Below, in pieces: positions 7,439 to 34,488 of a stretch of DNA of 64,000 nt. Each line of letters starts with the position of its first letter. Within the stretch, counting starts at the first letter, position 1. The DNA lies in assembly GCF_902833045.1 (NCBI RefSeq), contig NZ_CADFDU010000008.1, positions 62,001-126,000 on the forward strand, written 5' to 3'. The notes beneath the pieces were generated by a model. It did not search any database. It saw nothing but the letters and a program-made list of their open reading frames with translations, and had not been told where the DNA came from. Position numbers and translations under genes: made by a program. This stretch comes from Burkholderia sp. BCC0322 (lineage in GTDB: Bacteria; Pseudomonadota; Gammaproteobacteria; Burkholderiales; Burkholderiaceae).

Positions 7439-8047
7439 TCAGCCGGCCCGGCCCGTGCACAGCGCGTCGGCCGTCACCCACTGCGCGTCCCACGCCGCGG
7501 CCAGCCGCGCGCCCCGCCCGATCCGTACGGCCGCGTCGTCGAAATCGACGAACACGACGTGATCGGCCGCCGCGGGTTTCGCGGGCATCTCGCGCGTGCG
7601 TCCGTCGGACAGCACCCACAGCCAGCGCTGCTTGCCGGGCTCGCGCCGCGACGCACGCGCGAGCAATTGCGCGGCGGCCGCGATGCCGTCCGCGAGCGGC
7701 GTGCCGCCGCCGCCTTCGACGGGTTCGAGCCAGCGCGCATTCCACCAGCGCGGGACGGCCGGGCCAAAGCGTCGCGCGGCGCCGTTGCCGCCGAAGCAGA
7801 TCAGCGCGGTTTCGACCCGGGCGCGCGCGGCCTGGTCGAAATACGCGACGATCAGCCCCTTCGCCAAGGCAAGCCGCTCGTGAGACAGCATCGACGCCGA
7901 ACAGTCGAGCACGAAGCAATGCAGTGCGGGCGGCGTGCCGGCGCGTTTGCGGAAGCGCAGATGGTCGCGATGCAGCGGGCCGCCGCGTTTCGCGGCCAGT
8001 GTCGCCGGCCACGCCACGGCCGCGCCGGCGCGCGCCGTGCCCGGCAC
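7439..8047 (-). CDS. VWA-domain (ChlD-type) subunit of cobaltochelatase, probably translated by -1 frameshift from chlI
   Basis: The frame encodes the C-terminal half of a ChlD/BchD-like chelatase subunit. AVAWPATLAA is the linker, LHCFVLDCSASML carries the DxSxS metal-ion site of a VWA (integrin I) domain, and RWLWVLSDGRTREM follows. The only conventional start is the GTG at 8047, which has no good ribosome site. The frame is open further upstream to the end of chlI and lies at -1 to it. A slippery A7 and a stem-loop sit exactly at the junction, so the likely product is a fusion in which about 227 residues (from codon 8122-8120) follow residue 357 of ChlI. That gives 584 residues, close to a normal ChlD. 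If read alone, the product is a 202-residue VWA protein. Confidence 0.85.
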   Translation of the reverse strand: MPGTARAGAAVAWPATLAAKRGGPLHRDHLRFRKRAGTPPALHCFVLDCSASMLSHERLALAKGLIVAYFDQAARARVETALICFGGNGAARRFGPAVPRWWNARWLEPVEGGGGTPLADGIAAAAQLLARASRREPGKQRWLWVLSDGRTREMPAKPAAADHVVFVDFDDAAVRIGRGARLAAAWDAQWVTADALCTGRAG

Positions 8048-8067
8048 GCGCGCGGCTGCGCCTGATG

Positions 8068-8128
8068 GCCATCGAGGACCGCGAACGAGGTTCGCGGCGG
8101 CGCCGGCTCGATGGCTCAGCGTTTTTTT
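8068..8128 (-). promoter_or_regulatory. Programmed -1 frameshift signal at chlI/chlD junction
   Basis: Read on the minus strand, the end of chlI is CTA AAA AAA CGC TGA. The A7 at 8128-8122 is a classic slippery heptamer, followed after 6 nt (CGCTGA, including the stop) by a long hairpin. The outer arms GCCATCGAG/CTCGATGGC (8115-8107 with 8076-8068) and inner arms CCGCGAAC/GTTCGCGG (8097-8090 with 8086-8079, 3-nt loop) are all perfect. Slippage by -1 gives ...Lys-Lys-Thr-Leu-Ser and enters the VWA frame without a stop. Frameshifting of this kind has been described for cobaltochelatase chlD genes in other bacteria. Confidence 0.8.
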
Positions 8129-9192
8129 AGCGGCAGCGGCACGACGCCTTTGACGTTGCGCAGCCCCGCCGGCTCGGGCGGCAGGTAGCCCCAGTCGCCC
8201 TGGGATGGCGTGGCATCGTTGTTCGCCGCGCCCGATGGATCGCCGGGGCGCTCGCGCGCATCGGGCGGCGCGTGACCGTCGCGTTCGTCATCGGGTTGCG
8301 GTGCGCCGGACGAGGGGGGCAGGCCCGCGTGGCGCCGGTGCCGCAGCACCGCGTCGGCCACCCGCTCCACATGCGACACCGTGACCGCGTCGGCCTGCTC
8401 CAGCGCGGCAAGCGCGCGCGCCGCGCGCAGCATCACGAGATCGGCGCGCAGCCCGTCGACGGCCGCGTCGATACACAGCGCGCTGACGCGCGCATGGACC
8501 GCATCGTCGAAACCGAGCGCCGCCAGCCGTGCGCGCGCCGCGTGAATCCGGTCGCCGAGCTCGCGTTGCGCAGACGCATGACGCGCGCGAAACGCATCCG
8601 GATCGAGATCGAATGCAAGCCGTGCCTTCACGATCCGCTCGCGCTGTGCGGCGTCGAAGCAGTTCTCCAGCTCGATCATCAAACCGAAGCGGTCGAGCAG
8701 CTGCGGACGCAGCTCGCCCTCCTCCGGATTCATCGTCCCGATGAGCACGAAGCGCGCATCGTGCGCGTGCGACACGCCATCGCGCTCGACGATGTTCACG
8801 CCGCTCGCGGCGACGTCGAGCAGCGTATCGACGAGCCCGTCGGCGAGCAGGTTCACTTCGTCGACGTACAGCACGCCGAGATGCGCCCTCGCGAGGAGGC
8901 CCGGCCGGAAGCGCACGCCGTTTTCGGCGAGTGCATGCGCGAGATCGAGCGTACCCGTCACCTGCTCGTCGCTCGCCGACAGCGGCAGCGTGACGAACTG
9001 CCCTTCGGGCAACAGCTCCGCGAGGCCGCGCGCCGCGGTCGATTTCGCGGTACCGCGCGGCCCGCTCACCAGCACGCCGCCCAGCGACGGATCGATCGCG
9101 GCCAGCAGCAGCGCCTGCTGCAGCGCCTCCTGCGCGACGAGCGCCGCAAACGGAAAGACCGCGCGGGCGCGGTGCGTCGTCGGATCGGTCAT
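8116..9192 (-). CDS. ChlI-type AAA+ ATPase subunit of cobaltochelatase
   Basis: 358 residues. Walker A GPRGTAKS (44-51), Walker B LGVLYVDEVN (105-114) and GTMNPEEGELRPQLLDRFGL (about 152-171) identify a Mg-chelatase-I-like AAA+ protein. With CobN and a ChlD-like subunit it would drive ATP-dependent cobalt insertion into hydrogenobyrinate a,c-diamide in aerobic cobalamin synthesis. The ATG at 9192 overlaps the cobN stop as ATGA, so the two are translationally coupled. The last 45 residues are rich in Pro, Asp and Gly, like the linker of ChlD proteins. This supports the view that the gene also encodes the N-half of a ChlI-ChlD fusion made by frameshift at its 3' end. Confidence 0.92.
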   Translation of the reverse strand: MTDPTTHRARAVFPFAALVAQEALQQALLLAAIDPSLGGVLVSGPRGTAKSTAARGLAELLPEGQFVTLPLSASDEQVTGTLDLAHALAENGVRFRPGLLARAHLGVLYVDEVNLLADGLVDTLLDVAASGVNIVERDGVSHAHDARFVLIGTMNPEEGELRPQLLDRFGLMIELENCFDAAQRERIVKARLAFDLDPDAFRARHASAQRELGDRIHAARARLAALGFDDAVHARVSALCIDAAVDGLRADLVMLRAARALAALEQADAVTVSHVERVADAVLRHRRHAGLPPSSGAPQPDDERDGHAPPDARERPGDPSGAANNDATPSQGDWGYLPPEPAGLRNVKGVVPLPLKKR

Positions 9193-12100
9193 CGCCGTCC
9201 CCCTTCCTGGAATTGTTCGCTCGCGAGCCAGACCGCCTCGATCCGTTCGCGATAGTCGCCCGGCTGCTGCCACAGGCCGCGCTGCATCGCTTCGACGAAG
9301 CGTTCGCAGATGCCGTGCAGCGCCTTCGGGTTGTGCCGTTCGAGGAACGCGCGGGTGGCGTCGTCGAACAGGTACGCGTCGGCGACGAGCGCGTACTGGT
9401 GGTCGGACAGCACGCGCGCGGTCGCGTCATAGCCGTACAGGTAGTCGACGGTCGCCGCCATCTCGGCTGCGCCCTTGTAACCGTGGCGCTTCACGCCGTC
9501 GAGCCATTTCGGGTTGACGACACGCGAGCGGATCACCCGCGCGATTTCCTCGCGCAGCGTGCGCATCTTCGGCGCGGCCGGATTCGCGTGGTCGCCGTGA
9601 TAGATGCTCGGCTGCTGCCCGGACAGGTGCCGCACGGCCGCCGTCATCCCGCCCTGGAACTGGTAGTAGTCGTTCGAATCGAGGATGTCGTGCTCGCGGC
9701 TGTCCTGGTTCTGCACGACGACGTCGATCGTCGCGAGCCGCTCGCCGAACACGTCGGCCGCGGCGTCGCCCGCGCTGTTCTGCGCGTACGCGTGGCCGCC
9801 CCACCGGCGGTAGGCGTCGGCGAGATCGGCGTCGGCCTGCCAGCGGCGCTGGTCGATCAGGTCCTGCAGGCCCGCGCCGTAGCTGCCCGGCCGCGCGCCG
9901 AACACGCGCCAGCCGGCGCGGCGCCGCGCCTCGTCCGGTGCCACGCCCCGTGCGATCCACGTCTCGCGTTCACGCGCGATGCGCGCACGGATCGGGTTCA
10001 GATCCTCGGGCTCGTCGAGCGCGGCCACGGCCTGCACGGCCGCGTCGAACAGATGCATCAGGTTCGGGAACGCGTCGCGGAAGAAGCCCGACACGCGCAG
10101 CGTCACGTCGATGCGCGGCCGGTCGAAGATCTCGATCGGCAGGATCTCGAAGTCGGTCACGCGGTGGCTGCCGTGCGCCCATTTCGGCCGTACGCCGAGC
10201 AGCGCGAACGCCTGCGCGATGTCATCGCCACCGGTGCGCATCGTCGCCGTACCCCATACCGAGAGGCCGATCGCGCGCGGATAGTCGCCGTGATCCTGCA
10301 GATGACGCTCGATCAGTTGCTGCGCGGATTTCAGGCCGAGCGACCACGCGGCCTGCGTCGGCACCGCGCGCGTGTCGACCGAGTAGAAGTTGCGGCCGGT
10401 CGGCAGCACGTCGGGGCGGCCGCGCGACGGCGAGCCGCTCGGCCCCGGCGGCACGAAGCGGCCGTCGAGCCCGCGCAGCAGCTGACGCATTTCCTCGCCG
10501 CCGCATGCGTCGAGCGCGGGCAGCAGCGTCGCACGCACGCGCTCGATCACGGCGAGCGTGTGCGGCCAGTCGCCGGGAGGCGTCGCATCGGCGCCCGTGT
10601 TGCCGCAGCCGGCTGTGCACAACCCGTCGAGCCAGTGCTGCGCAAGCCGTTCGAGCCGCTCGCGCGTATCGCCCGCATGGCGCCACGGCGATGCGTCGAG
10701 CGCCTGCAGGATCGCCGGGCGCGGGCCGACCCACGGCGCGGCCCAGTCGGCCGCGAGCGGATCGAAATCGTCGCCGAGCGCGAGATCGCGCGCGAGCGCA
10801 CCGATCAGCCCTGCCCGCGCACCCTTGCCGTCACCGACCGGAAAGCGTGCGAGCGCGAGCAGCGTGTCGCGCCGCTGGCGCTCGGCCGGCGATACGCCGA
10901 ACACGTGCAGCCCGTCGCGAATCTGCGCTTCCTTCAGCTCGCACAGCCACGCGTCGACGCGCGTGAGCAGCGCATCCTCGCCGCCCGTATCACGCGGCGG
11001 CGACACGCTCAGTTCGTCATGCAAACGATGTTCGGCGATCGTCGCTAGGATCGTCTTGCGCAGCAGCTTCGCGCGCCGCGCATCGACCATCAGCGCTTCG
11101 TAGTATTCGTCGACCTGCCGTTCGAGATCCTGCAGCGGGCCGTAGTTTTCCGCGCGGGTGAGCGGCGGCATCAGGTGATCGATGATCACGGCCTGCGCGC
11201 GGCGCTTCGCCTGGCTGCCCTCGCCCGGATCGTTGACGATGAACGGGTACAGGTGCGGCAGCGGCCCCAGCGTCAGGTCCGGCCAGCACGCGTCGGACAG
11301 CGCGACGCTCTTGCCCGGCAGCCATTCGAGGTTGCCGTGCTTGCCGAGGTGGATGACCGCGTCGATGCGATACGCGTCGCGCAGCCAGAAATAAAACGCG
11401 AGATACGCGTGCGGCGGCACGAGATCCGCGTCGTGGTAGCTCGCGTAATCGTTCTCGCCGCGCGAGCGCGACGGCTGGATGCCGACGAACACGTTGCCCG
11501 CGCGCCAGCCGGCGATCGTGAAGCGCCCTTGCCGCAGCGTCGGGTCGGCTTCGGGCGGGCCCCAGCGTGCGTTCAGTGCGTCGCGCACGGCCGCCGGCAG
11601 CCGCGCGAAACGTGCGACGTAGTCGGCCAGCGGGAAGCTCTGGAATGCGGGACGCAGCGCGTGCACGGCCGTGTCGTTGGTCACGCCTTCGGTGAGCCGT
11701 GCGATCAGCGCGTCGCCGTCGGGCGGCAGGTCGGCCACCGCATAGCCCGCGTCGCGCAGCGCCGCGAGCACGCGCAGCGCGGACGCCGGCGTGTCGAGCC
11801 CGACGCCGTTGCCGATCCGCCCTTCGCTTTGCGGATAGTTCGCGAGAATCAGCGCGATACGCTTGTCGGCGTGGTCGACCGTGCGCAGCCGGCACCAGCC
11901 GCGCGCGAGCGCCGCGACGAACGCGATCCGCTCGGCATCCGGCTGGTAGCGCACGACGTCGACCTCGGTGTGCGGGCAGCGGTACGCGAGCCCCTTGAAG
12001 CTCACCGCGCGCGTGACGATGCGCCCGTCGACCTCGGGCAGCGCGATGTGCATCGCGATGTCGCGCGCATGCAGGCCCTGGTTGTCGGCCACCCACGCGT

Positions 12101-12998
12101 CGCGATTGCCGCCGGACAGGATCACCTGCAATACCGGCGCGTCGCCGGCGAGCACGTCGTGTTCGGGGCTGTCGATCGCGCCGGCTGCGAACGCGGTCGT
12201 GTTCAGCACGAGCGCGACGTCGTGCGTGTCGCAGAGCTGCGTGATGACTTCGCGGCTCACCGCGTCCTTCAGCGACGTGACCGCGATCGGCAGCGGATTC
12301 AGCCCTGCGTCGACGAGCGCATCGGCCAGCGCGTCGAACACGGCCGTGTTCGCGGCCTGCCAGTGCGCGCGATAGAACAGGATCGCGACGACGGGCGCAC
12401 CGGGCGTCCAGCGCGGCCGCCAGTCGTCGACGCTCGCGCGGTCGCGCGCCGGGTGATACAGCGCGGCGGCCGGCAGCGGGCGCGGCGGCTCGGGCGCTTC
12501 GCCGAAGCCGAGCGTGTGGAACGCAATGCTGCGCAGCAGCGCCTCGGCGTTGTGCACGCCGCCTTCACGCAGGTAGCGCCACCACAGCCGGCACAGGTCG
12601 GGCGCGACGGTGCTTTTCGCGACGAGGTTCGGGTCTTCCTGCAGGTCGCCCGAGAACATCGCGAGCGGCAGTTTGCGCTTCGACGCGAGCGACACGGCCT
12701 GCTCGATCCCGTACGGCCAATACGCCTCGCCGCCGAGATGATCGATCACGACCGACTTCGCATGCTGCAGCACGTCGTCGACGTAGAAGTCGACCGACGC
12801 CGGCTGCCGCAGGAACGTGACGTTCGCGAGCCGCACGCTCGGGAAGCCGGCCGGCAGATGCGGCACGACGCTCGCCAGCAGCGACAGCGTCGTGTCGGCC
12901 GAACTCAGGATCACGATGTCGGCCGGCTGCTGGTCGATCCGGACGACGCCCTGCGTATCGTCGACGAAGCCGCCCGGCGTGGTACGCAGCAGATGCAT
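9189..12998 (-). CDS. cobN: Cobaltochelatase large subunit CobN
   Basis: 1269 residues, the normal size for CobN, the corrin- and cobalt-binding H-subunit homologue of Mg-chelatase. Diagnostic blocks are VIHLGKHGNLEWLPGKSVAL (near residue 552), FIVNDPGEGSQAKRRAQAV, MPPLTRAENYGPLQDLE, and the C-terminal GGMTAAVRHLSGQQP. The reaction is ATP-dependent insertion of Co2+ into hydrogenobyrinic acid a,c-diamide. It starts 6 bp after cobW and overlaps chlI by 4 bp, all in the minus-strand arm controlled by the riboswitch at 14441-14640. No truncation is visible. Confidence 0.97.
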   Translation of the reverse strand: MHLLRTTPGGFVDDTQGVVRIDQQPADIVILSSADTTLSLLASVVPHLPAGFPSVRLANVTFLRQPASVDFYVDDVLQHAKSVVIDHLGGEAYWPYGIEQAVSLASKRKLPLAMFSGDLQEDPNLVAKSTVAPDLCRLWWRYLREGGVHNAEALLRSIAFHTLGFGEAPEPPRPLPAAALYHPARDRASVDDWRPRWTPGAPVVAILFYRAHWQAANTAVFDALADALVDAGLNPLPIAVTSLKDAVSREVITQLCDTHDVALVLNTTAFAAGAIDSPEHDVLAGDAPVLQVILSGGNRDAWVADNQGLHARDIAMHIALPEVDGRIVTRAVSFKGLAYRCPHTEVDVVRYQPDAERIAFVAALARGWCRLRTVDHADKRIALILANYPQSEGRIGNGVGLDTPASALRVLAALRDAGYAVADLPPDGDALIARLTEGVTNDTAVHALRPAFQSFPLADYVARFARLPAAVRDALNARWGPPEADPTLRQGRFTIAGWRAGNVFVGIQPSRSRGENDYASYHDADLVPPHAYLAFYFWLRDAYRIDAVIHLGKHGNLEWLPGKSVALSDACWPDLTLGPLPHLYPFIVNDPGEGSQAKRRAQAVIIDHLMPPLTRAENYGPLQDLERQVDEYYEALMVDARRAKLLRKTILATIAEHRLHDELSVSPPRDTGGEDALLTRVDAWLCELKEAQIRDGLHVFGVSPAERQRRDTLLALARFPVGDGKGARAGLIGALARDLALGDDFDPLAADWAAPWVGPRPAILQALDASPWRHAGDTRERLERLAQHWLDGLCTAGCGNTGADATPPGDWPHTLAVIERVRATLLPALDACGGEEMRQLLRGLDGRFVPPGPSGSPSRGRPDVLPTGRNFYSVDTRAVPTQAAWSLGLKSAQQLIERHLQDHGDYPRAIGLSVWGTATMRTGGDDIAQAFALLGVRPKWAHGSHRVTDFEILPIEIFDRPRIDVTLRVSGFFRDAFPNLMHLFDAAVQAVAALDEPEDLNPIRARIARERETWIARGVAPDEARRRAGWRVFGARPGSYGAGLQDLIDQRRWQADADLADAYRRWGGHAYAQNSAGDAAADVFGERLATIDVVVQNQDSREHDILDSNDYYQFQGGMTAAVRHLSGQQPSIYHGDHANPAAPKMRTLREEIARVIRSRVVNPKWLDGVKRHGYKGAAEMAATVDYLYGYDATARVLSDHQYALVADAYLFDDATRAFLERHNPKALHGICERFVEAMQRGLWQQPGDYRERIEAVWLASEQFQEGGRR

Positions 12999-13004
12999 CG
13001 TGCG

Positions 13005-14093
13005 TTACGCCTGTTGCGGTTCGGCCGCGCACGCGGCGTCGAACGCGCGTTGCAGCGCGGCCGCGTCGAGATCCTCGCCGATCAGCACGAAGCGGCTCGC
13101 GCGCGTTTCGCCGTCCTGCCAGCGACGGTCGAAGTAGCTGTCGAAGCGGCGGCCGACGCCCTGGATCACGAGCCGCATCGGTGCGCCGGGCAACGCGGCG
13201 AAGCCCTTCGCGCGGTAAATCGTGTGCGCTTCGACGACGCGCTGCAGCGCGGCGATCGTCGCTTCGCGCGTGCCGGCGTCGCCCGACACGACCACCGAGT
13301 CGAAATCGTCGTGATGATGATCGTGATCGCCGTCGTCGGCCGAGCCGTGATGGTCGTGACGCAGGTGGATCGTTTCCTCCGATGCCGATTCGAGACCGAG
13401 CAGCATCGCGAGATCGAGCTCGCCGCGCGTCGCGCGCACGATCTTCACCTGCGGCGGGATCTCGTCGCGGATCGCGGTTTCGATCTGCGCGAACGCCGCG
13501 TCACCGACGAGATCGGCCTTGTTCACGATCACGAGATCGGCGGACGACAGTTGATCGGCGAACAACTCGTGCAGCGGCGATTCGTGGTCGAGGTTCGGAT
13601 CGGCGCGGCGCTGCGCGTCGACGGCCTGCGGGTTTTCCGCGAACTGGCCGCTGGCGGCGGCCGGCCCGTCGACCACGGTCACGACCGCATCGACCGTGAA
13701 GCTGTTGCGGATCGTCGGCCAGTTGAACGCCTGCACGAGCGGCTTCGGCAGCGCGAGGCCGGACGTCTCGATCAGCACGTGGTCGATGTCCGCGCGGCGC
13801 TCGACGAGCGCTTCCATCACCGGATAGAACTCTTCCTGCACCGTGCAGCACAGGCAGCCGTTCGCGAGTTCGTAGAGCTGGCCCGACGCTTCGCCCTGCG
13901 CGCCGTCGGCATCGTCGCAGCCGATGCCGCAGCCCTTGAGGATTTCGCCGTCGATGCCGAGCTCGCCGAATTCGTTGACGATCACCGCGATGCGGCGGCC
14001 TTCGGCGTGCTGCAGGATGTGGCGCATCAGCGTGGTCTTGCCGCTGCCGAGAAAGCCCGTGACGATCGTGACGGGAAGCTTGCGTAGGGTCAT
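13005..14093 (-). CDS. cobW: CobW-type cobalt metallochaperone GTPase
   Basis: 362 residues of the COG0523 G3E GTPase family. P-loop GFLGSGKTT (13-21), NEFGELGIDGE (40-50), metal-binding CLCC (80-83), NKAD guanine motif and a His/Asp-rich stretch at about 243-264 (HDHHGSADDGDHDHHHDD). CobW proteins bind Co2+ and GTP and are thought to deliver cobalt to the chelatase. The gene sits directly before cobN under a cobalamin riboswitch, which makes CobW, not a zinc or nitrile-hydratase chaperone, the right assignment. Confidence 0.93.
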   Translation of the reverse strand: MTLRKLPVTIVTGFLGSGKTTLMRHILQHAEGRRIAVIVNEFGELGIDGEILKGCGIGCDDADGAQGEASGQLYELANGCLCCTVQEEFYPVMEALVERRADIDHVLIETSGLALPKPLVQAFNWPTIRNSFTVDAVVTVVDGPAAASGQFAENPQAVDAQRRADPNLDHESPLHELFADQLSSADLVIVNKADLVGDAAFAQIETAIRDEIPPQVKIVRATRGELDLAMLLGLESASEETIHLRHDHHGSADDGDHDHHHDDFDSVVVSGDAGTREATIAALQRVVEAHTIYRAKGFAALPGAPMRLVIQGVGRRFDSYFDRRWQDGETRASRFVLIGEDLDAAALQRAFDAACAAEPQQA

Positions 14094-14235: not shown

Positions 14236-14440
14236 GGTGCTTCCTTGCGAACGGTCGACATCGTGAATGCCAACACGGCTGCCGCCGGCCCGGCTCGCGC
14301 AGCCGGCTGTTCCCCGCGACGGCCGGCGCGGGTTCGCGCATGGGCAGATCGGCGGAGGAAGCGGGCAACATGCGGGCGTCGGGCCTGCTGCGGCCGTGGA
14401 CGATGCGCCGCCTCCCCGCGGCGCTGAACCCCAATGTTTA

Positions 14441-14640
14441 GGCCGGTATCCGGGCTGGCGAACACGCCGCTTCGCCTTCCCGGATGCGCGCGGCATCCAG
14501 TGGCGGTCGTCCGCATGCGCGCGGCATGCGGCGAAGCGGCGCTGCGTGGCGCTTGCGCGCGACGCGTTCGCTTACCGTTGCGGGGGCAGCACAGGTTGGC
14601 TCGACTGCGGCGCAGGCGGGCGCCCTGTTTCCCGTTTAAC
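14441..14640 (-). promoter_or_regulatory. Cobalamin riboswitch controlling the cobW-cobN-chlI arm
   Basis: Read on the minus strand the order of conserved elements is complete: TTAAACGGGAAACAGGG at the 5' side, AGCCAACCTGTGCTGCCCCC then CGCAACGGTAAGCG, the B12-box core GCCACTG (around 14500), CGGGAAGG, and the closing CCAGCCCGGATACCGGCC at 14459-14442. This is the adenosylcobalamin aptamer. The 3' edge lies about 205 nt before the microprotein start. I could not assign the expression platform. Confidence 0.93.
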
Positions 14641-14849
14641 TGCGCGCACCGGAGCGGCGCGCGCGAGCACCAAAACGCGTGCGAGTGTAGGCGGCGGTGC
14701 GGGGAGCGTCAAGGCGAACCAGGCCGCCGGGCCCGGTTCCGGATGCCCGGCGCGCAGGGCTGGACGTCGTGCGCGGCGGTTCGCGCGGGTGGATCGCTGT
14801 GCTATCGTAGCGCCGCGTTCGGTGCTCGCATGCGCATTCCGCGCCTGCA

Positions 14850-15023
14850 GTTAAACGGGAAACAGGAGGCGGCCTGCCGCCCGGCCTGTGCTGTCCCCGC
14901 AACGGTACGCCGCCCGCGCGACGCGCTTCCCCGCGCACGCGCCCATGCCGCCCACGATGCCACTGCCCTTCAGCCGGGCGGGAAGGCTGCGGCCTGGCAA
15001 GCGGCCAGCCCGGATACCGGCCG
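14850..15023 (+). promoter_or_regulatory. Cobalamin riboswitch controlling the cobA-cobE-cobO-cobB arm
   Basis: Plus-strand aptamer with the same landmarks: TTAAACGGGAAACAGGAGG (from 14851), GCCTGTGCTGTCCCCGCAAC GGTA (around 14885-14910), GCCACTG (near 14960), GGGAAGG, and GGCCAGCCCGGATACCGGCC ending at 15022. It begins 210 bp from the divergent riboswitch, so both arms of the cluster respond independently to cobalamin. About 190 nt separate it from the cobA start. Confidence 0.93.
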
Positions 15024-15090
15024 ACGCAAGGGGCGAGCCCGACGCTCGCCGAACGCCCGATCCGCGGGGGACGGATGGGGTGCGCATTCC

Positions 15091-24779: not shown

Positions 24780-27029
24780 TCACCAGTTGTATTTCGCGGT
24801 CGCGATCACGGTACGGTCGGTCCCGAACACGCAGACGTTCGCCGACTGGCAACCGCTGATGTAGTGGCGGTTGAACAGGTTCGTCCCGTTCACGGCGAAG
24901 CGCCAGTTACGCGTGTCGTAGTGCACGCCCGCGTCGAACAGCGTGACGCTCGATACCGTCAGCGAGTTGTCGGCCGCACCGGCCGATGCGCTCTGGTAGC
25001 GAACGCCGCCGCCGAGGCCGAAGCCCGCGAGCGGCCCCGTGTGCCACGTCCAGTCGGTCCACAGCGACGCCATCTGGCGCGGACGCGGGATGTCGACCGG
25101 CCAGTTGTTCAGCGACACGTCGTTGGCCTTCACGTTCTTCACGTCCTGGTACACGTACGACGCGATCACCGACAGGTTGCGCGTGAGCTTGCCGGTCGCG
25201 CTCAGCTCGATCCCGCGCGAGCGCACTTCGCCGGTCTGCACCGACTTCGTGCCGGTATTGTCCTGGCTCGGCAGCGCCGGCGTGAGCACGTTGGTCTGGT
25301 TGATCTGGTAGATCGCCGCGTTCAGCATCAGGTTCTTGCCGGGCGGCTGCCAGCGCAGGCCGGCCTCGATCTGCTTGCCGCGGGTCGGCTGCGGCAGCCC
25401 GCCGCCGAGCAGGTTCACGCCGATCAGCGGATTGAACGACGTGGCATAGCTGACGTACGGCGACAGCCCGTAATCGCCCTGGTACGTGAGGCCCACGCGG
25501 CCGGTGAATGCCGTCACGTCCGCCTTCGTCGACGTGCCGCCCGCGCGGTCGTCCATCCGCATGTTGACCCAGTCCTCGCGGCCGCCGAGCGTCAGCGTCC
25601 AGCGGTTCCACTTGACCTGGTCCTGCGCGTACAGGCCGAACGTGTTCATCGTCGTGTACGTGTTGGTGCGGAACGTCGCGTCGGGCGTGAACACCGCCGT
25701 CGTGACGGGCTGGTACACCGGGTTGTAGATGTTCAGCGGCGGTGCGGCGGCGAGCCACTCGCTGTCGGTCGCCGTCTGCCGGTTGTACTGGAAGCCGAGC
25801 AGCAGTGTGTGCTGGAGCGGGCCCGTCGCGAAGCGGCCTTCGAGGTTGTTGTCGATGTCGAAGCGGCTGTAGTTCATCTGGAACACGCCGGCCCAGCGCG
25901 ACACGTCGGTCATGCTGCCGTCGACGAAGCCGTTGCCGAACACCGAACCGTTGTCGAGCGACAGGTGCATCAGGCGCGTGTTCTGGCGGAACGTCCACGC
26001 CGGCGTCAGGTTGCGCTCGAACTGGTAGCCGACCGACCACTGCTTCTTGCGGTAGTAGTTGAAGTTTCCGTCGCCCTCGTAGACGTCCTTGTTGATCTGC
26101 CCGTTCGGGTTCGGCAGCACCGTGCCCTGCGCGGGCAGGAAGTTCGACGAGATGTCGCCCCAGTCCTGCAGATAGGTGGCCGACAGCGTCAGCGAGGTGT
26201 CCGCGTCCGGACGCCAGCGGAACGACGGCGCGAGCGCGACGCGCTGGTCGTTGTTCGGGCCGGTCAGCGCGTTGCCGTCGCGTGCGACGCCGACGAAGCG
26301 GTACGCGTACTTGCCGTCCGGGTCGAGCTTGTCGCCGACGTCGATCATGAACTGCTTGCGCGCGTAGTTGCCGATCTGCACGCCGGCCTCGCGCACGCGC
26401 TCGCCGTCGGCGAGCTTGGTCTGCACGTCGACGATCGCGCCCGGGTCGCCCGCGCCGTACAGCACCGAGGTCGGCCCGCGCAGCACGCTGATGCTGTCGA
26501 TCATGTACGGATCGACACGCCAGCTCGCCAGGTTGATCGTGTTCGGCACCTGCAGCCCGTTCACGTACGCGGTCGGCGTGAAGCCGCGCAGCGCCGCGTA
26601 CCAGTCGGAGCGGTTGTCCGAGCCGTACGACGAGAAACCCGGCACGTAGCGCAGCGCCGCGTTCACGTCGGTCGCGCCGGTCATCTCGATCTGCTGCGCG
26701 GTGACGACGTTGATCGTCTGCGGGATCTCGTTGATCGACGTACTGGTCTTCGTACCGGTCCGGCTGCGCTTCGCGACGAGCCCGACCGTGCCGTCTCCTT
26801 CCGAGGCCGCGTTGACGTTGATCGTCGGCAGCGTGCCGGTCGACCCACTGGCCGACGCACCGTTCTGCGCACTGCTGGCCGATGCCGCGGCGCCCGCGTT
26901 CACGGCCGGCGCCGTCTGGGCCTGTGCCTGCCCTGCCGCCACACCGAACGCCACGCTCGCCGCGGCTGCGATCGCACGCAAACGCGTGCCTGTTGCCCAC
27001 TCCATCTTTCTCTGCTCCACTTGTTTCAT
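24780..27029 (-). CDS. orbA: TonB-dependent ferric-ornibactin receptor OrbA
   Basis: 749 residues. A signal peptide ends near AAGQAQAQ. A plug domain begins with TSINEIPQTINVVTAQQIEM and includes ALRGFTPTAYVNGLQVPN and SVLRGPTSVLYGAGDPGAIV, followed by a 22-strand barrel ending in the aromatic YNW. This is a siderophore receptor of the FpvA/FoxA type, without an extended N-terminal signalling domain. That fits control by OrbS and Fur and not by cell-surface signalling. Starts at 27029 and 27005 are both plausible. It sits within the biosynthetic operon between pvdA and pvdF. Confidence 0.95.
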   Translation of the reverse strand: MKQVEQRKMEWATGTRLRAIAAAASVAFGVAAGQAQAQTAPAVNAGAAASASSAQNGASASGSTGTLPTINVNAASEGDGTVGLVAKRSRTGTKTSTSINEIPQTINVVTAQQIEMTGATDVNAALRYVPGFSSYGSDNRSDWYAALRGFTPTAYVNGLQVPNTINLASWRVDPYMIDSISVLRGPTSVLYGAGDPGAIVDVQTKLADGERVREAGVQIGNYARKQFMIDVGDKLDPDGKYAYRFVGVARDGNALTGPNNDQRVALAPSFRWRPDADTSLTLSATYLQDWGDISSNFLPAQGTVLPNPNGQINKDVYEGDGNFNYYRKKQWSVGYQFERNLTPAWTFRQNTRLMHLSLDNGSVFGNGFVDGSMTDVSRWAGVFQMNYSRFDIDNNLEGRFATGPLQHTLLLGFQYNRQTATDSEWLAAAPPLNIYNPVYQPVTTAVFTPDATFRTNTYTTMNTFGLYAQDQVKWNRWTLTLGGREDWVNMRMDDRAGGTSTKADVTAFTGRVGLTYQGDYGLSPYVSYATSFNPLIGVNLLGGGLPQPTRGKQIEAGLRWQPPGKNLMLNAAIYQINQTNVLTPALPSQDNTGTKSVQTGEVRSRGIELSATGKLTRNLSVIASYVYQDVKNVKANDVSLNNWPVDIPRPRQMASLWTDWTWHTGPLAGFGLGGGVRYQSASAGAADNSLTVSSVTLFDAGVHYDTRNWRFAVNGTNLFNRHYISGCQSANVCVFGTDRTVIATAKYNW

Positions 27030-27051
27030 GCGGTCTCCGACCGTGCCTTTG

Positions 27052-28428
27052 TCAAAGAGCGAAAGCCATCCGGCTCGCGCTCACCCCGTTGTCCCGTCGT
27101 TTTTCCTGTGATGCCCGGGCCGCGCCTTCTTCATGGGCGGGTGCGATCTCGTTTTCGAGCGACGCGCAGATTTCGTCCGCGCGACGCGCCAGTACCGACA
27201 GCAGCGTGTCGGACAGGCCGTGGCTGTCTTCGCAGCAGCCTTGCAGGTAGATGCGCGGCGCGAAGTGCTCGGGCGTCGCGAGCAGGTAGTCGCGCGTCAC
27301 GTCGCCGCGTGCAAGCGCGTCACCCAGGTGCGGCGCGAGCCCTTCGAGCAGCGCCGAATGCGTGTCGCGGCGGTAGCCGGTGGCCAGCACGAGCGCGTCG
27401 AAACGCTCGACGCGCGTGTCGCCGCTCATCCGGTCGCGCAGCGTCAGCTCGATGCGTCCGTCGGCGGTGCGCACCGCCGCCTCGATCGCGCTGTTCGCGA
27501 GCAGCGCATGACGCGGCGTGCCGTCGATGCGCTGCAGGTACAGCATTTCGTAGATCTGTTCGATCAGCGGCCGGTCGACCACCGCGTAGTTCGTGTCGCG
27601 ATAACGCTCGAGCAGCGCGCGTCGCGCGTCGTGCGGCTGCGCGTAGACGACATCGGTGAACTCGGGGCTGAAGATCTCGTTGACGAACGGGCTGTCGTCG
27701 GCCGGCTTCAACGCACCGGCGCGCATCACGAGGTTCGCGTCGACGTGCGGGAAGCGGCGCGCGAGATCGATGAACACCTCGGCGGCGCTCTGCCCCGCGC
27801 CGATCACCGCGACGCGGCGGCGCTCGCCGTCCGGCGACGCGACGAGCCGGTCGATGTCGGTCAGGTACGACGACGAGTGGATCACGCGGTCGCGACCGAG
27901 CGCGGCGAACGCGTCCGGAACCGCCGGCGTGCCGCCGACGCCGACCGACAGCGCGCGCGTGACGCGCTGGCGCTCATGGCCGGCCGCGTCGCGCGACAGC
28001 ACGCGCAGCGCGTCGATCCGCGCGCCGTCGCCGTGCACGGGTTCGATCGCCAGGACGGTTTCGCTGTAATGGACGCGATCGTCGAACGCCTCGGCCACCC
28101 AGCTCAGGTAGTCGTGGAACTCCACGCGGGTCGGATAGAAGTTCTTCAGGTTGACGAATTCGTTCAGCCGGCCGCGTTCGAACAGATAGTTGATGAACGT
28201 GTAGCGGCTCTTCGGATCGCGCATCGTGACGAGATCCTTCAGAAACGAGATCTGCATCCGGCAGTCGTCGAGCAGCATGCCGCGATGCCAGCCGAATTCC
28301 GGCTGGCGCTCGACGAAGCAATGGGCGAACGTGCGGGCGCCGCCGCGCTCGGCGAGGCGCACGGCCAGCGCCAGATTCGACGGCCCGAAGCCGACGCCGA
28401 TCAGGTCGAATACGGTTTCTCTCTGCAT
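27052..28428 (-). CDS. pvdA: L-ornithine N5-monooxygenase PvdA
   Basis: 458 residues. FAD-binding GVGFGPSNLALA (11-22), MQISFLKDLVTMRDP (about 58-72), NADPH-binding VAVIGAGQSAAEVFIDL (about 203-219) and the C-terminal LATGYRRD motif define the siderophore N-hydroxylase family. It makes N5-hydroxyornithine, needed for both hydroxamates of ornibactin. The ATG at 28428 lies 32 bp after orbK, in the orbI-orbL operon. Confidence 0.96.
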   Translation of the reverse strand: MQRETVFDLIGVGFGPSNLALAVRLAERGGARTFAHCFVERQPEFGWHRGMLLDDCRMQISFLKDLVTMRDPKSRYTFINYLFERGRLNEFVNLKNFYPTRVEFHDYLSWVAEAFDDRVHYSETVLAIEPVHGDGARIDALRVLSRDAAGHERQRVTRALSVGVGGTPAVPDAFAALGRDRVIHSSSYLTDIDRLVASPDGERRRVAVIGAGQSAAEVFIDLARRFPHVDANLVMRAGALKPADDSPFVNEIFSPEFTDVVYAQPHDARRALLERYRDTNYAVVDRPLIEQIYEMLYLQRIDGTPRHALLANSAIEAAVRTADGRIELTLRDRMSGDTRVERFDALVLATGYRRDTHSALLEGLAPHLGDALARGDVTRDYLLATPEHFAPRIYLQGCCEDSHGLSDTLLSVLARRADEICASLENEIAPAHEEGAARASQEKRRDNGVSASRMAFAL

Positions 28429-28460
28429 GTCTCAGCTCCCTTGTCGGTGAATCCGGCGCG

Positions 28461-29486
28461 TCAGACGTGACGGCCGGAGAAGAAGGTCTCGCGCAGCGTG
28501 CGCATCCACAGCGGCTGCGCGTCGGCCAGCGCGAGACGGCGCTGCCGCGCGAAGCCATGCCGCGCGAGATGGTCGGCAACCCGCGCGTGGCCGGCCGGCA
28601 CGGCACAGCCGACCGCTTCGGTACGCGGGTCGTCGAGAAACAGGTAATGAACGACGGACGGCAGCCAGCCCGCCACGCAATGCGGGCCGCGCCAGCGCGA
28701 CTCGCCGACCAGCATCCGCAGCCCGCGGTCGTAGTCGCGCGCCGCGACGTGCGGCGCGAGCGCGTCTTCCTTCAGCCAGACCGCTTCGAAATACGCGAAC
28801 GGTTCGCCGTCGAAGCAGCCGACCAGCGGAATCACGTGCGGATCGGCGTCGGGCGCCGCGCCTTGCGCGCCGGGCGGCGTGCCCGGCCAGCCGTCGCGCA
28901 CGCGCGGCTCGTCGAACCAGCGCGCGAGTCGCGCGGCGTCCTCGGCCGGCTGCCAGCCGCGCAGCGTGAAGCGCACGCCGAGCGCAGGCAGGTCGCGCGC
29001 GTAGACCTCGCCGCGCGGCGCGGGCGGCCGGCGCGGATGGCGGCGGCCGTCGGTGAACATCGGCAACGTCGCGCACGGCAGATGCGGGCCGACGAGCCAC
29101 AGATCGGCCTGCTGCGCCCAGCCTTCACGCATGCAGCGGCCGCCGTCGGCGAGCACGCCGCTCGCGCGCAACGCATCGAGCGCAACCGCCGGCCACGCTG
29201 CCGGGTCGAGCCGGATCGCCGCGTGGCGGGCGCTATCCGAAAACGCCGCGGCCAGCGCGACCAGCAGCGCACGCCGCTGGTCGGCCGGGGCCGCGCGATG
29301 GTTGTACGCGACGAGGCGCAGCGCGCCATCGTCGCCGAGCTGTGCGCGCAGCAACTGCGCGCCGATGCCGTCGCCCTGCGCGACGCGGATCTGCGTGCCG
29401 TCGCGCACGGCGAACAGGCCGTCCGCGAACGCGAGGCGGCAGGTATCGAGCAGCGTGAATCCGTCCGGACGCACCTCAGCCAGCAT
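28461..29486 (-). CDS. orbK: OrbK, IucB-type N5-hydroxyornithine acyltransferase
   Basis: 341 residues with the same GNAT siderophore-acyltransferase C-terminus as OrbL: LARWFDEPRVRDGWPG, PLVGCFDGEPFAYFEAVWLK, DYDRGLRMLVGESRW. Ornibactins carry a 3-hydroxy fatty acyl group on the N5-hydroxyornithine of residue 1, and an enzyme of this type is expected to attach it. The ATG at 29486 has an excellent AGGAGG site and lies inside the end of orbJ (11-bp overlap). Confidence 0.87.
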   Translation of the reverse strand: MLAEVRPDGFTLLDTCRLAFADGLFAVRDGTQIRVAQGDGIGAQLLRAQLGDDGALRLVAYNHRAAPADQRRALLVALAAAFSDSARHAAIRLDPAAWPAVALDALRASGVLADGGRCMREGWAQQADLWLVGPHLPCATLPMFTDGRRHPRRPPAPRGEVYARDLPALGVRFTLRGWQPAEDAARLARWFDEPRVRDGWPGTPPGAQGAAPDADPHVIPLVGCFDGEPFAYFEAVWLKEDALAPHVAARDYDRGLRMLVGESRWRGPHCVAGWLPSVVHYLFLDDPRTEAVGCAVPAGHARVADHLARHGFARQRRLALADAQPLWMRTLRETFFSGRHV

Positions 29487-32400
29487 GGCGCGCCTCCTGT
29501 CCCGTTTCCGTGTGTGCATCGAGTCGCGCATCAAGTCGCGCGCCGAGTGCCGCGAGCGTCGGCGACGCGAACAGGTCGGCGACCGTCAGCGCGTGACCGG
29601 CACGGGCCGCCGCGTCGACGAAGCGCACGACGTCGAACGAGGTCGCGCCGGCTTCGAACAGGTTGGCGTCCGCTTCGGGTGCGGCCGTCGCGAACGTGTC
29701 GGACCACAGCGCCGCGAGGGCGGCAGCCGCATGCGGTGCACGCGACGACGTCGCCGCGCGCCCGTTGCCTTCCGCCTGCGAGCGATGCGACGCCGGCGCG
29801 ACCGCAGGCTTGTCCGGCGCGCCGAGCGCCGCTTCCGACGCGCCGGCGAAACGCGCGACTTCGTCGTGGTAGACATCGACGAGCGCATCGACGAAACCGC
29901 GGTCGATCAGTTCGTCCGCATACGAGAATGCGGCGCTTACGCGGCCATCCGGATGCTCGACGACGTCGAGCTCCAGCGTGAACACGACGCGATGGCGCAC
30001 CTCGCCGAATCCGGCCAGCGACAGGCCGGCCCAGTCGCGCGCCGCGGCACCCGCCGGGCGCAGGTAGTTGAACATCACCTGGAACAGCGGATTGGCCTGC
30101 GCGGCACGCGGCGCGCGCAGCGCCGCGACGACGTCCGCGAACGGCACGTCGGCGTGCGCGTAGGCCGTGAGCGCCGTGTCGCGCACTTGTGCGAGCACGT
30201 CCGCACGGCGCGCGGCCGGGTCGAGCCGCGTGCGCACGACGACCGAATTGATGAAGAGGCCGAGCGCGTCGCGGGCCGCGTCGCCCGTCAGCTCGCGCGT
30301 CGACGCCAGCACGCCGACCGGCTGGTCGGCCGCGCCCGTCGTGCGGAACAGCGCGGTGTTGAGCGCCGCGTGCAGCAGCATCGGCAGTGTCGCGTGCGCG
30401 GCCGACGCCGTGTCGCGCGCGGCGCGGATCAGGGCGCCGTCGAATTCGAATGCAATGCGGGCCGCACGCCATTGCGGCACGGCCGGTGCGTGCGCGCGCT
30501 GCGGCAGCACGCGCGTCGGCAGATCGGCCAGCGCGTCGCGCCAGTACGCGACGCGGGCCGGATGGCACGGTGCGGGCAGCACGAGCGGCATGGCTGGTTC
30601 AACGGCCTCAACAGCCTCATCGGCCGGCGCGGCGCCGCCTTGCACGCGGGCGACATAGCGCACACGAACCGCGTCGAGCCACAGCTCGATCGATTCGCCA
30701 TCCGACACGATGTGATGAATCGTCACCGACAGCACATGATCGTCTGCCCCGAGCCGCAGGACCCGCGCGCGCCACAGCGGCGCATCGGCAGCGAGGTCGA
30801 ACGGCGCGAGCGCATCCTCGTCGGTCAGCGCCGCGGCACGAACGAGTGCATCGGTTTGCGCCGACAGGTCGACCACCGGCAGTTCGACGGCAACGTCCGA
30901 GTCGATCCGCTGGCCCGGAAGTGCGCCGTCACGCTCGACCAACCGCGCGCGCAGCGCCGGATGCACGATCGCGACATCCGCAAAGGCCGCACGCAGCGCA
31001 TCGACATCGAGCGGGCCGCGCACACGCAGCGCGACCGGAATGTTGTATGCGGCGCTGTCCGGCTGCGCGCGCCACAGGAACCACAGGCCGAGCTGCGCCG
31101 GCGACAGCGGCCACACGCCGTGCGCGTCCGGTTGGGCGACGGCGAGGCCCGGCGCTGCCGCACCGGCATGCGCGGCGCGCGGCGCACCGGCGACCTGCAA
31201 CGCGTACTGCGCGAGCACGGGCGCTTCGAACAGCGCACGCACCGGCACGTCGCGGCCGAGCCGTTCGGCCACACGCGTTGCGACGCGCACGGCGGCGAGC
31301 GAATGGCCGCCGAGATCGAAGAAGTGATCGCCGCGCCCCACGCGCGCGAGATTCAGCACGTCGCACCAGATCGCGGCGAGCGCGGCCTCGTCGCCGTCGT
31401 GCGGCGCTTCGTACGCGCGCTCGACGCGTACCGGCGCCGGCAGCCGTGCGCGGTCGACCTTGCTGTTCGCGTTGCGCGGCAGCGCGTCGAGCACGATCAG
31501 CTGCGCGGGCACCATGTAGTCGGGCAGCGTGCGGCGCAGGTGCGCGTCGAGCGTCGCGGCTTCGACCGGCTGCGCGGCCGCCCTTGCGTCGGCGGTCAGC
31601 TCGACGTACGCGACCAGCTGCGCGCGTGCGCCCTGCCCGTGCACGACCGCGCACGCTTCGCGCACCGCGTCGTGCGCGGCAAGCTGGGCCTCGATCTCGC
31701 CGAGTTCGATGCGCAGCCCGCGCAGCTTCACCTGATGGTCGACGCGGCCGATGAAGTCGAACACGCCGTCCGCGCGACGCCGCACGAGGTCGCCCGTGCG
31801 GTACAGCCGCGCGCCCGGCACGCCGTACGGATCGGGCACGAAGCGCTCGGCGGTCAGCGCCGGGCGGTCGAGATAACCGCGCGCGACGCCGATCCCCTCG
31901 CCGCCCAGATACAGTTCGCCGATCACGCCGACCGGCAGCGGATGCAGGCGTTCGTCGAGCACATGCGCGGTGCGTGCGCCGACCAGCGTACCGATCGGCA
32001 GGTAGGCGGCGTCGCCGAGCATCGCGAGATCGTCGCCGGGCCGGAACATCCACAGCGTCGGCGTGATGACCGTCTCGGTCGGGCCATAGCCGTTGACCAC
32101 GCGCACGTTCGGCAGTGCGCGCCGCAGCATCGCGAACGCCTCGCGCGACGTCGCCTCGCCGCCGACGGTCAGCGAACGCAGCGTCGGCGGCGCACCATGC
32201 GCGAGCGCCCATTCGGCGAGCTGCGCGGCGCAACCGGGCGGCACGTAGGTCATCGTCACGCCATCGCGGACCATCATCGCGCAGGTCTGCGCGGGCGGCC
32301 ACAGCACGTCGGCCGTCACCGACACGGCGGCGCCCGACATGTACTGCGAAAACCAGCCTTCGTGCGCACCGTCGAAGTTGACCGACTGGAACAGCAGGAA

Positions 32401-34488
32401 CACGTCGTTTTCGCCCGCGCCGTAGCGCTCGGCGATCGCCGCGCAATGCCGCGCGAACGACGCATGATCGACGATCACGCCCTTCGGCTTGCCGGTCGAG
32501 CCCGACGTGTAGATCACATAGGCCGCGTGGCCCGGCAGCACGTCCGGCAGCGCGACGTGCGCGGCTGCGTCGAGTGCATCGACTTCATCGGCGCGCCATA
32601 CGCGCAGATCCGGCAGTTCGAGCAGCGACGCGGCGCTCGCGCCGTCGGTCAGCACGTGCGCGATGTTCGCGTCGCCGACGATCTGCGCGAGCCGTTCGCG
32701 CGGATGCGCCGGGTCGAGCGGCACGAACGCGGCGCCCGACTTCAGCACCGCGATCAGCGCGACGAGCAGGTCGACCGAGCGCCGCAGCGCGACGCCCACG
32801 CGCATTTCGGGCCGTACGCCGGCCGCCACCAGATGGCGCGCCAGCCGTGCCGCGCGCGCATCGACTTCGCCACGCGTCAGCGCACGATCGACATCGGCGA
32901 CGCCGCGTGCATCGGGCCGCGCGTGTGCATGCGCAGCGATGCGCGCATGCACGGGTACGAACGGCTCGACTTCGGTCTCGTCCGCCGGCGCGTTCCATGC
33001 AAAGAGTTGCGCCCGTTCGTCGGCGGGCAGCCAGTCGAGATCGCCGACCGGCATGCCGGGGCGCGCGAGCGCATCGGCCAGCAGCGTGACGAAACGTGCG
33101 GCCAGCCGTGCGATCGCGTCCGCGTCGAACAGGTCGAGCGCGTAGATGAACGCGGCGTCGAACGTGCCGTCCGGCGTCGCTTCGACCGAAAGCGTCAGGT
33201 CGAATTTCGCGGACGGCGTGCCCGACGGCAGCAACGCCGCCGACGCCGCGCCGAGCGCCGGCAGCGCGCGGCGCTCGCCGTACGCGGCCATCACCTGGAA
33301 CAGCGGATGGTGACTCGCGCTGCGCGGCACGCCGAGCGCGTCGACCACCTGCTCGAACGGCACGTCCTGGTGCATCTGCGCGTCGACGAGCGCGCGCTGC
33401 GTGCGCGCGACCAGCGACGAAAAATCGCCGTACGCGGGCACGTCGACGTCGATCGCGAGCGCGTTGACGAAGAAGCCGATCAGGCCGGCGACTTCCGCGC
33501 GTTCGCGGTTCGCGGCCGGCACGCCGACGCAGATTCGCGCATCGCCGGTCGCGCGCGCCAGCAGCGCATCGAGCGCGGCAAGCAGCACCGCGAACGGCGT
33601 GGCGCCCGACGCAGCCGCGAATGCGCGCAATTGCGCGCCGATGCGTGCGTCGAGCGAAAACCCATGGCGTGCGCCGCGCGCACTGCGGCGTGCGGGTCGC
33701 GCGGCTGCGCCCGGCAGCGCCAGCACGCCGCGTTGCGGATCGAGCCGTTCGCGCCAGAACGCGAGCTGGCGGTCACGCTCGCCGGCGTCGAGCCAGCGGC
33801 GCTGCCACAGCGCGTAGTCGGCGTACTGGATCGGCAGCGGCGCGAGCGGCACCGGCCGGTCGGACGCATACGCGCGATAGAACGCCGCGAGTTCCTCGAG
33901 CATCACGCCGGACGACCAGCCGTCCGACACGATGTGATGCACGGTCAGCGCGAGCCAGTGACGGGTCGCATCGAAGCGCACCAGATGGGCGCGTACGAGC
34001 GGCGCCGCGCCGAGATCGAACGGCTCGGCTTCGTCAGCCGTGGCGACCGCCTCCGCGCGCGCCGTGCGCTGCGCATCCGGCAGCGCTTCGAGATCGGTTT
34101 CGCGCCACGGGCAGCGCAGCGGCGCGTGGATCGTTTGCGCCACGCCGTCCTGCGTTTCGTCGAAGGTCGTGCGCAGCGCCTCATGGCGCGCGATCAGCGC
34201 GTCGCACGCCAGGCGCAGCGCATGCGCGTCGAGCGGGCCCGTCAGCGCCAGGCGCTCGGTGATGTGATACGCGTCGGGCGCATCGATCAGCCGCGCATGC
34301 AGCCACAGCCGCGTCTGCGCGAACGACGCCGGCACGCGCTCGCTGCGTGGCGTGCGCGGCGGGATCGGCAGCACGCGGAAGTCGATGCCGGCCGCGCCGA
34401 GCTTGTCGATGAAGACCGCGCGCTGCGCGTCGGGCAGTTGCGCGAAACGTGTCGCGAGCGCGAGCCAGTCGGGTTGAACCTTCGTCAT
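29476..34488 (-). CDS. orbJ: Ornibactin NRPS OrbJ (C-A-T-C-T)
   Basis: 1670 residues. Domains by core motifs: C (HHIVSDGWSSG at about 183), A (YTSGSTGKPKG at about 657, YRTGDL, NGYGPTE), T (DHFFDLGGHSL, Ser near 1059), a second C (HHIVSDGES at about 1256), and a C-terminal T-like domain (LFEAGATSFDVVRF near 1608). There is no thioesterase. It would add N5-formyl-N5-hydroxyornithine as residue 4, and the last C domain would release the chain by condensing it with putrescine. The A domain shares the SVNFDxAHExW block with the first A domain of OrbI, consistent with both activating hydroxyornithine derivatives. It starts 9 bp after orbI and ends within orbK. Confidence 0.94.
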   Translation of the reverse strand: MTKVQPDWLALATRFAQLPDAQRAVFIDKLGAAGIDFRVLPIPPRTPRSERVPASFAQTRLWLHARLIDAPDAYHITERLALTGPLDAHALRLACDALIARHEALRTTFDETQDGVAQTIHAPLRCPWRETDLEALPDAQRTARAEAVATADEAEPFDLGAAPLVRAHLVRFDATRHWLALTVHHIVSDGWSSGVMLEELAAFYRAYASDRPVPLAPLPIQYADYALWQRRWLDAGERDRQLAFWRERLDPQRGVLALPGAAARPARRSARGARHGFSLDARIGAQLRAFAAASGATPFAVLLAALDALLARATGDARICVGVPAANRERAEVAGLIGFFVNALAIDVDVPAYGDFSSLVARTQRALVDAQMHQDVPFEQVVDALGVPRSASHHPLFQVMAAYGERRALPALGAASAALLPSGTPSAKFDLTLSVEATPDGTFDAAFIYALDLFDADAIARLAARFVTLLADALARPGMPVGDLDWLPADERAQLFAWNAPADETEVEPFVPVHARIAAHAHARPDARGVADVDRALTRGEVDARAARLARHLVAAGVRPEMRVGVALRRSVDLLVALIAVLKSGAAFVPLDPAHPRERLAQIVGDANIAHVLTDGASAASLLELPDLRVWRADEVDALDAAAHVALPDVLPGHAAYVIYTSGSTGKPKGVIVDHASFARHCAAIAERYGAGENDVFLLFQSVNFDGAHEGWFSQYMSGAAVSVTADVLWPPAQTCAMMVRDGVTMTYVPPGCAAQLAEWALAHGAPPTLRSLTVGGEATSREAFAMLRRALPNVRVVNGYGPTETVITPTLWMFRPGDDLAMLGDAAYLPIGTLVGARTAHVLDERLHPLPVGVIGELYLGGEGIGVARGYLDRPALTAERFVPDPYGVPGARLYRTGDLVRRRADGVFDFIGRVDHQVKLRGLRIELGEIEAQLAAHDAVREACAVVHGQGARAQLVAYVELTADARAAAQPVEAATLDAHLRRTLPDYMVPAQLIVLDALPRNANSKVDRARLPAPVRVERAYEAPHDGDEAALAAIWCDVLNLARVGRGDHFFDLGGHSLAAVRVATRVAERLGRDVPVRALFEAPVLAQYALQVAGAPRAAHAGAAAPGLAVAQPDAHGVWPLSPAQLGLWFLWRAQPDSAAYNIPVALRVRGPLDVDALRAAFADVAIVHPALRARLVERDGALPGQRIDSDVAVELPVVDLSAQTDALVRAAALTDEDALAPFDLAADAPLWRARVLRLGADDHVLSVTIHHIVSDGESIELWLDAVRVRYVARVQGGAAPADEAVEAVEPAMPLVLPAPCHPARVAYWRDALADLPTRVLPQRAHAPAVPQWRAARIAFEFDGALIRAARDTASAAHATLPMLLHAALNTALFRTTGAADQPVGVLASTRELTGDAARDALGLFINSVVVRTRLDPAARRADVLAQVRDTALTAYAHADVPFADVVAALRAPRAAQANPLFQVMFNYLRPAGAAARDWAGLSLAGFGEVRHRVVFTLELDVVEHPDGRVSAAFSYADELIDRGFVDALVDVYHDEVARFAGASEAALGAPDKPAVAPASHRSQAEGNGRAATSSRAPHAAAALAALWSDTFATAAPEADANLFEAGATSFDVVRFVDAAARAGHALTVADLFASPTLAALGARLDARLDAHTETGQEARHAG

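Follow-up and report, generated by a model that had tools for sequence, protein, structure and literature searches.

The chlD gene of the aerobic B12 pathway, located at 7439..9192 on the minus strand of the window (the whole 64-kb stretch of Burkholderia DNA analysed here), is predicted to use programmed −1 ribosomal frameshifting, yielding a long product of 584 aa that aligns collinearly with in-frame homologues. Judged from sequence, we place the probability of this reading at about 0.92. Programmed −1 frameshifting in Burkholderia chlD is of a kind already published and, given the strong backing provided by comparison with related loci, is very likely at work here.

The shift site lies at the 3′ end of a ChlI-like frame of 358 codons (8116..9192, minus strand), which starts at ATG 9192 and closes with CTA (8130–8128), AAA (8127–8125), AAA (8124–8122), CGC (8121–8119) and TGA (8118–8116). 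This end contains the slippery heptamer A_AAA_AAA (8122..8128, minus strand), an X_XXY_YYZ motif placed in frame and upstream of the 0-frame stop, followed by a 6-nt spacer, CGCTGA (8116..8121, minus strand), that includes the stop itself. A putative stimulatory hairpin occupies 8068..8115 on the same strand; its 6-nt distance from the heptamer falls within the 5–8 nt given in an excerpt of PMC4066793. Specifically, a perfect 9-bp outer stem (8115–8107/8076–8068) and a perfect 8-bp inner stem (8097–8090/8086–8079) with a 3-nt loop (8089–8087) form one hairpin, with 9 unpaired nucleotides between the two stems in its 5′ arm and 2 in its 3′ arm. The −1 frame is open from ACG (8122–8120) to a stop at 7441–7439 and encodes a linker and a VWA domain of 227 aa (7439..8122, minus strand), the C-terminal half of the long product, so that the joined protein measures 357 + 227 = 584 aa. 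An A7 run occurs only twice on the minus strand of the 64-kb window. These coordinates bear out the anatomy described in the earlier note, which had named the A7, the 6-nt spacer, the perfect 9-bp and 8-bp arms, the VWA frame at −1 and a product of 584 residues.

The domain content of the two frames matches that of a single ChlD protein. The ChlI-like frame carries Pfam Mg_chelatase, AAA_5 and AAA_lid_2 domains and has the PDB ChlI relatives 8osf, 1g8p and 6l8d, while the −1 frame contributes a VWA_2 domain with a DxSxS motif and is related to 2x31, the magnesium chelatase 60 kDa subunit. The best NCBIfam model of the ChlI-like frame is TIGR02442, which covers residues 65–326 with 375 bits, below its cut-off of 779.45; the two halves match this profile in order, the first at positions 88–347 and the VWA half at 457–586. 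The same model, for a putative cobaltochelatase, is also the best for the joined protein, at 442 bits and thus still below the curated cut-off of 779.45, and the BchD-ChlD model TIGR02031 reaches 265.6 bits, below its cut-off of 499.55, so membership is assigned in neither family. The TIGR02031 alignment nevertheless runs in one stretch, pairing residues 22–533 of the joined protein with positions 1–532 of 608. The CobS and CobT models (TIGR01650 and TIGR01651) match no protein of the window. Moreover, the 584-aa product is collinear over approximately residues 8–574 with eight in-frame homologues from Neptuniibacter, Psychromonas, Motiliproteus, Marinomonas and others, at 38–41% identity, and this end-to-end alignment with unshifted proteins makes the long product look like a normal ChlD. 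The locus has the arrangement of fs-chlD, its AAA+ half lying in frame 0, its VWA half at −1, and the whole collinear with ChlD proteins that need no shift. The earlier reading of two products, the longer one a fusion, is supported, and the gene name changes: the product of the shift would be a ChlD of the usual full length and layout (AAA+, linker, VWA), so the gene is chlD. The unshifted product, which ends in the linker and contains the AAA+ and lid domains, is the AAA+ part of ChlD and would play the role of ChlI.

All elements of the site are kept across the genus. The heptamer reads A_AAA_AAR in 63/63 same-genus loci (61 AAA, 2 AAG), TGA is the second codon after it, at identical distance, in 63/63, and the VWA match lies at −1, with the −1 frame open as far as the match, again in 63/63. 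The two A7 occurrences on the strand and the joint retention of heptamer, stop and −1 VWA frame make the signal more than a chance occurrence. Nor does it reflect a codon habit: before the shift site, the lysine codons of chlI across the 63 loci are split evenly between AAA (103) and AAG (104), yet AAA AAA follows an A-ending codon in 61/63. In one of these loci (L053, genome G051), the −1 frame is 126 codons long and closes 50 bases short of the contig end, which represents either a truncated VWA domain or an assembly error.

The signal extends beyond the genus. Matches were obtained in 123 of the 249 genomes searched across the family, and 93 of these belong to other genera; among 40 loci hand-picked from those 93 genomes the signal is present in 34. 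The other six (L178–L183) lack it, four having VWA in frame 0 and two having no VWA match; in-frame chlD is thus also present in some genera of the same family. Among named loci, taken as the best 80 of a longer list, 71 carry the signal, with 27 heptamers ending in A and 44 in G, and the remaining nine comprise eight in-frame fusions and one unreadable MAG (L088). This 71/80 is not independent of the 63/63, as L064–L069 are Burkholderia and come partly from the same assemblies as the genus genomes. A dnaX-type shift giving a short product was also considered for loci without the signal and was dropped: the 13 such loci show no consistent slip site, and an A run in the linker is found in only one (L128) of the eight named in-frame loci. 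Separately, Eleftheria terrae (L264, 4026–4127) carries the same signal, GCA AAA AAA GCC TGA followed by stem-like sequence, and is annotated as two genes.

The hairpin is supported by pairing and by compensatory change. The pair count used 58 of 64 rows (50 of them distinct), leaving out L055, which has N's in the stem, and L059–L063, in which the stem is longer. Paired cells amount to 97.4%, compared with 94.3% in shuffled alignments and 25–42% in six slid versions, and changes on both sides occur in 7/17 stem pairs, in 21 cells against 3.8 in the shuffles. None of 500 shuffles reaches the observed pairing, both-side-change values or covariation score; the number of further pair types is less distinctive, being reached by 34/500. 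The outer arm, directly after the stop codon, keeps 8/8 pairs in 63/64 genus rows, the exception being L055 with its N's. RNAalifold recovers the same stem from the same alignment, but leaves pairs 38–48 and 41–45 open and adds 33–53. As pair 41–45 fails in 16/50 rows and 38–48 in 4/50, some members of the genus have a shorter inner stem. When the sequences are folded one at a time, the z-scores are moderately negative (mean −1.87; 70/168 below −2), and no weight is placed on them. According to excerpts of a review of fs-chlD (PMC5009743), sequence conservation of the structure is not strong, and compensatory stem changes such as those within this one genus would explain that observation. Together, these comparisons answer the earlier call for an alignment of close relatives, in which the A7 (or A6G), the spacer and the stem are all kept, the last with covariation.

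A rival reading is slippage of a different kind, in which RNA polymerase would add or drop A's within the A7, so that part of the mRNA would code for the joined protein in frame. The A7 is indeed a homopolymer followed by a hairpin, and in excerpts of PMC3711429 the published efficiency rises with run lengths of 7, 9 and 11 A's. However, 44 of the 71 named loci and two Burkholderia loci have A_AAA_AAG, and this shorter A run speaks for slippage of tRNAs; six A's followed by G constitute a ribosomal heptamer (PMC4066793, in part), the stem begins within the distance stated there, and the published blots are interpreted as frameshifting (PMC3711429, in part). Transcriptional slippage is accordingly very improbable, and ribosomal frameshifting is the preferred reading of the heptamer.

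The length of the stem region provides further information on whether it is translated. Within the genus this region measures 48, 60 or 66 nt, changing in whole-codon steps in 63/63 readable rows, and its length is a multiple of three in 33/34 family rows; in the other named loci, mostly Pseudomonas, it is mainly 34 or 28 nt, lengths that are in step with each other. Such triplet lengths indicate that the stem preserves the −1 frame, as expected if the stem is translated in that frame. Codon-position counts were taken from 51 rows of one linker length. The −1 frame signal is strong from codon 25, near GTG 8047 (207/232/645), absent in the stem (78/125/97), and without clear form at codons 18–24 between the stem and GTG 8047 (44/90/93). 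As periodicity over codons 18–24 is not decisive, the argument for −1 translation uses the triplet stem lengths instead.

These counts bear on a reading as two genes, in which a free VWA protein would arise from GTG 8047 or through termination-reinitiation, the −1 frame offering a CTG that overlaps the TGA. In the VWA frame the first available start is GTG 8047, which opens 202 codons that hold the VWA domain; codon periodicity is clear only from about the same point, and Eleftheria terrae is annotated in this way. Conservation of the start argues in the other direction, with a GTG at the same ungapped distance in 38/64 rows. In a scan of 63/64 loci (L055 left out), any start with a Shine-Dalgarno energy of −5 or lower in the stretch from the shift to the DxSxS motif is found in 1/63 loci (L047, a TTG), and an ATG in that stretch in 6/63. 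The chlI start scores −10.8, whereas the cobN start, at −2.5, scores no better than GTG 8047, which has the same value, so the start test alone is not decisive. The search for an efficient independent start at 8047, named earlier as a possible refutation, thus finds no conserved one, with the caution that cobN starts equally weakly. A pair of genes would also leave the heptamer and the covarying stem unexplained and fits poorly with stem lengths that change in triplets; on balance it is very unlikely. A decaying or mis-sequenced chlD, for which the interrupted frame and nothing further speaks, is refuted by the same site and covarying stem in 63/63 same-genus loci and in other families, and can be set aside.

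Anatomy, conservation, covariation, frame keeping and gene context are observed here, whereas the slip, how often it occurs and what the two products do are inferred, as follows. Ribosomes would translate the AAA+ part and reach A_AAA_AAA with the hairpin starting 6 nt downstream, where the two lysyl-tRNAs would on occasion move back by one base. Without this slip, translation would end at TGA, the second codon after the heptamer, and give a ChlI-like small subunit of 358 aa. With it, ribosomes would read through the stem at −1 and produce the 584-aa AAA+-linker-VWA ChlD, the medium subunit. Both products would then work with CobN in cobalt insertion, and the subunit ratio would be set by the slip frequency. 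The short product is tentatively assigned as the small subunit for want of a clear alternative, an assignment weakened by the CobS-like genes of the genus and by the in-frame relatives described below. A two-subunit reading of fs-chlD is reportedly also that of Antonov in MBE in 2020, as the title has it. The same reading is given in excerpts of PMC9227772 (Kuznetsov 2022).

The gene neighborhood is consistent with a cobaltochelatase. The large subunit gene cobN (9189..12998, minus strand; TIGR02257, 1581.9 bits against a cut-off of 822.05) lies immediately upstream, its end overlapping the chlD start by 4 nt, and is preceded by cobW (13005..14093, minus strand; TIGR02475, 482.9 bits against 332.1). 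A cobalamin riboswitch (14424..14689, minus strand; RF00174, 51.2 bits with a gathering threshold of 31.5) stands ahead of the cobW-cobN-chlD series. A second cobalamin riboswitch, at 14803–15039 on the plus strand, is divergent from the first and precedes a uroporphyrinogen-III methyltransferase gene. Elsewhere in the window, 24780–34488 appears by eye to be a siderophore region, with what we take to be a TonB-type receptor, a monooxygenase-like gene and a long non-ribosomal peptide synthetase frame.

Across the genus, cobN and chlD are co-present or co-absent in 65/65 genomes. One ChlI match each (E 1e-40 or better) is found in 63/65, and a cobN match in 63/65, 62 of them above the cut-off; G016 and G058 (the latter 82% complete) lack both. 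The nearest copy by protein, 96% identical, is that of G018. In two complete or near-complete genomes, cobN appears in two slightly overlapping pieces (G026:C1:2399550-2403331 and G064:C1:804562-808339), which may represent a split gene, another frameshift or an error. No genus genome (0/65) has a CobS or CobT match above either curated cut-off (TIGR01650/TIGR01651). A CobS-like gene scoring above 500 bits, though below the cut-off, is present in 19/65 genomes, including G018, and 18 of these 19 have cobN; put differently, 63/65 genomes are cobN-positive with exactly one ChlI match, and 18/63 of them have such a gene, which could be another small subunit. The CobS-like gene occurs as a pair with a CobT-like gene, for example at G018:C3:2289094-2290032 and 2287400-2288260, both below cut-off, and the pair is also found in G016, which has no cobN or chlD match; it is perhaps a different AAA+/VWA system.

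Whether both products are needed can be considered through the in-frame relatives. All eight genomes with a named in-frame chlD have a cobN match (in two pieces in G287 and as only a contig-end piece in G291). All eight do without the shift, and five of them (L096, L098, L116, L122 and L132) lack both a second ChlI (at E 1e-20) and a strong match to CobS. These five relatives, with cobN and without a small-subunit gene found, count against a strict need for both products and suggest that the short product may be dispensable; a chelatase built on the long product only, as a one-product enzyme, may exist in them.

The last letter of the heptamer varies together with the lysine tRNAs of the host. 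Burkholderia G018 has both tRNA-Lys(CUU) and tRNA-Lys(UUU), while in Pseudomonas G298 a scan of all 62 tRNA places gave two tRNA-Lys(UUU) and no (CUU), one weak place giving no gene. The wider survey used a CUU anticodon-arm pattern, with the UUU arm as positive control where CUU was not found, and covered 120/123 genomes, omitting L120 (neither pattern), L088 (site unreadable, no tRNA match) and L078 (same genome as L151). Heptamers ending in A occur with CUU in 74 genomes and without it in 1, and those ending in G occur without CUU in 42 and with it in 3, namely two Burkholderia and one Pseudomonas. The two Burkholderia loci (L042 and L049), G-ending despite tRNA-Lys(CUU), are natural test cases for slip rate. 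The Pseudomonas genome of L121 carries pattern matches for tRNA-Lys(CUU) and an extra (UUU) within 1.2 kb (G338:C1:105520-106705), unlike the others searched, and this pair perhaps sits on a mobile element.

According to excerpts of PMC4066793 and PMC5009743, tRNA-Lys(CUU) is expected to hold AAG and reduce the slip, and insertion elements use AAG in many species that have both lysine tRNAs. It is conceivable, at somewhat less than even odds, that the slip-site letter is tuned to the host tRNAs, with AAA kept where CUU would hold AAG, and the slipperier AAG used in hosts with UUU only. A ChlI tree drawn for 46 of the 120 genomes and read by eye reduces the association to one deep split, one further concordant lineage and four discordant tips; the further lineage is a small MAG, which makes its lack of CUU uncertain. 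With so few independent events, the link is a lead rather than a result: it is new and unproven, and may reflect shared ancestry.

To the extent that sequence can settle the matter, what looks in Burkholderia like a chlI frame with a separate VWA frame is a single gene whose recoding signal has been conserved. The medium subunit of the cobaltochelatase is therefore overlooked where the locus is annotated as two genes, as in Eleftheria terrae. Two questions become testable: what tunes the slip rate in different species, through heptamers that naturally end in A or in G next to differing sets of lysine tRNAs, and whether the short product is needed at all, through in-frame relatives that have cobN and no visible small subunit.

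The locus agrees closely with the published family. Excerpts of PMC3711429 (Antonov 2013, NAR) describe 23 fs-genes with −1 shifts, grouped as a magnesium chelatase cluster that includes Burkholderia by name, so the earlier note was right that such frameshifting is known in chlD; the same source gives reporter frameshifting in E. coli of 63, 40 and 10% for 11, 9 and 7 A's in three genes of the fs-chlD family. A search of the open-access literature found no paper devoted to the Burkholderia shift site. Relative to the fs-chlD family as described in these excerpts, the gene, domain order, −1 direction, poly-A slip site, downstream structure and cobN partner are the same and nothing essential differs; the present analysis concerns one species' copy and adds the covariation, the triplet stem lengths and the tRNA-Lys comparison. 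In-frame ChlI-ChlD proteins of the TIGR02442 type have the same domains, but without a consistent shift site. CobS and CobT of cobNST likewise provide an AAA+ small and a VWA medium subunit to CobN (PMC9227772, in part), although they are two separate genes of distinct families, unlike the single chlD. Finally, E. coli dnaX, with A_AAA_AAG and a stem, shares the heptamer class, the downstream stem and the derivation from a single gene of two subunits that belong to the same complex (PMC5009743, in part); the dnaX shift leads to the shorter product, whereas the chlD shift leads to the longer one.
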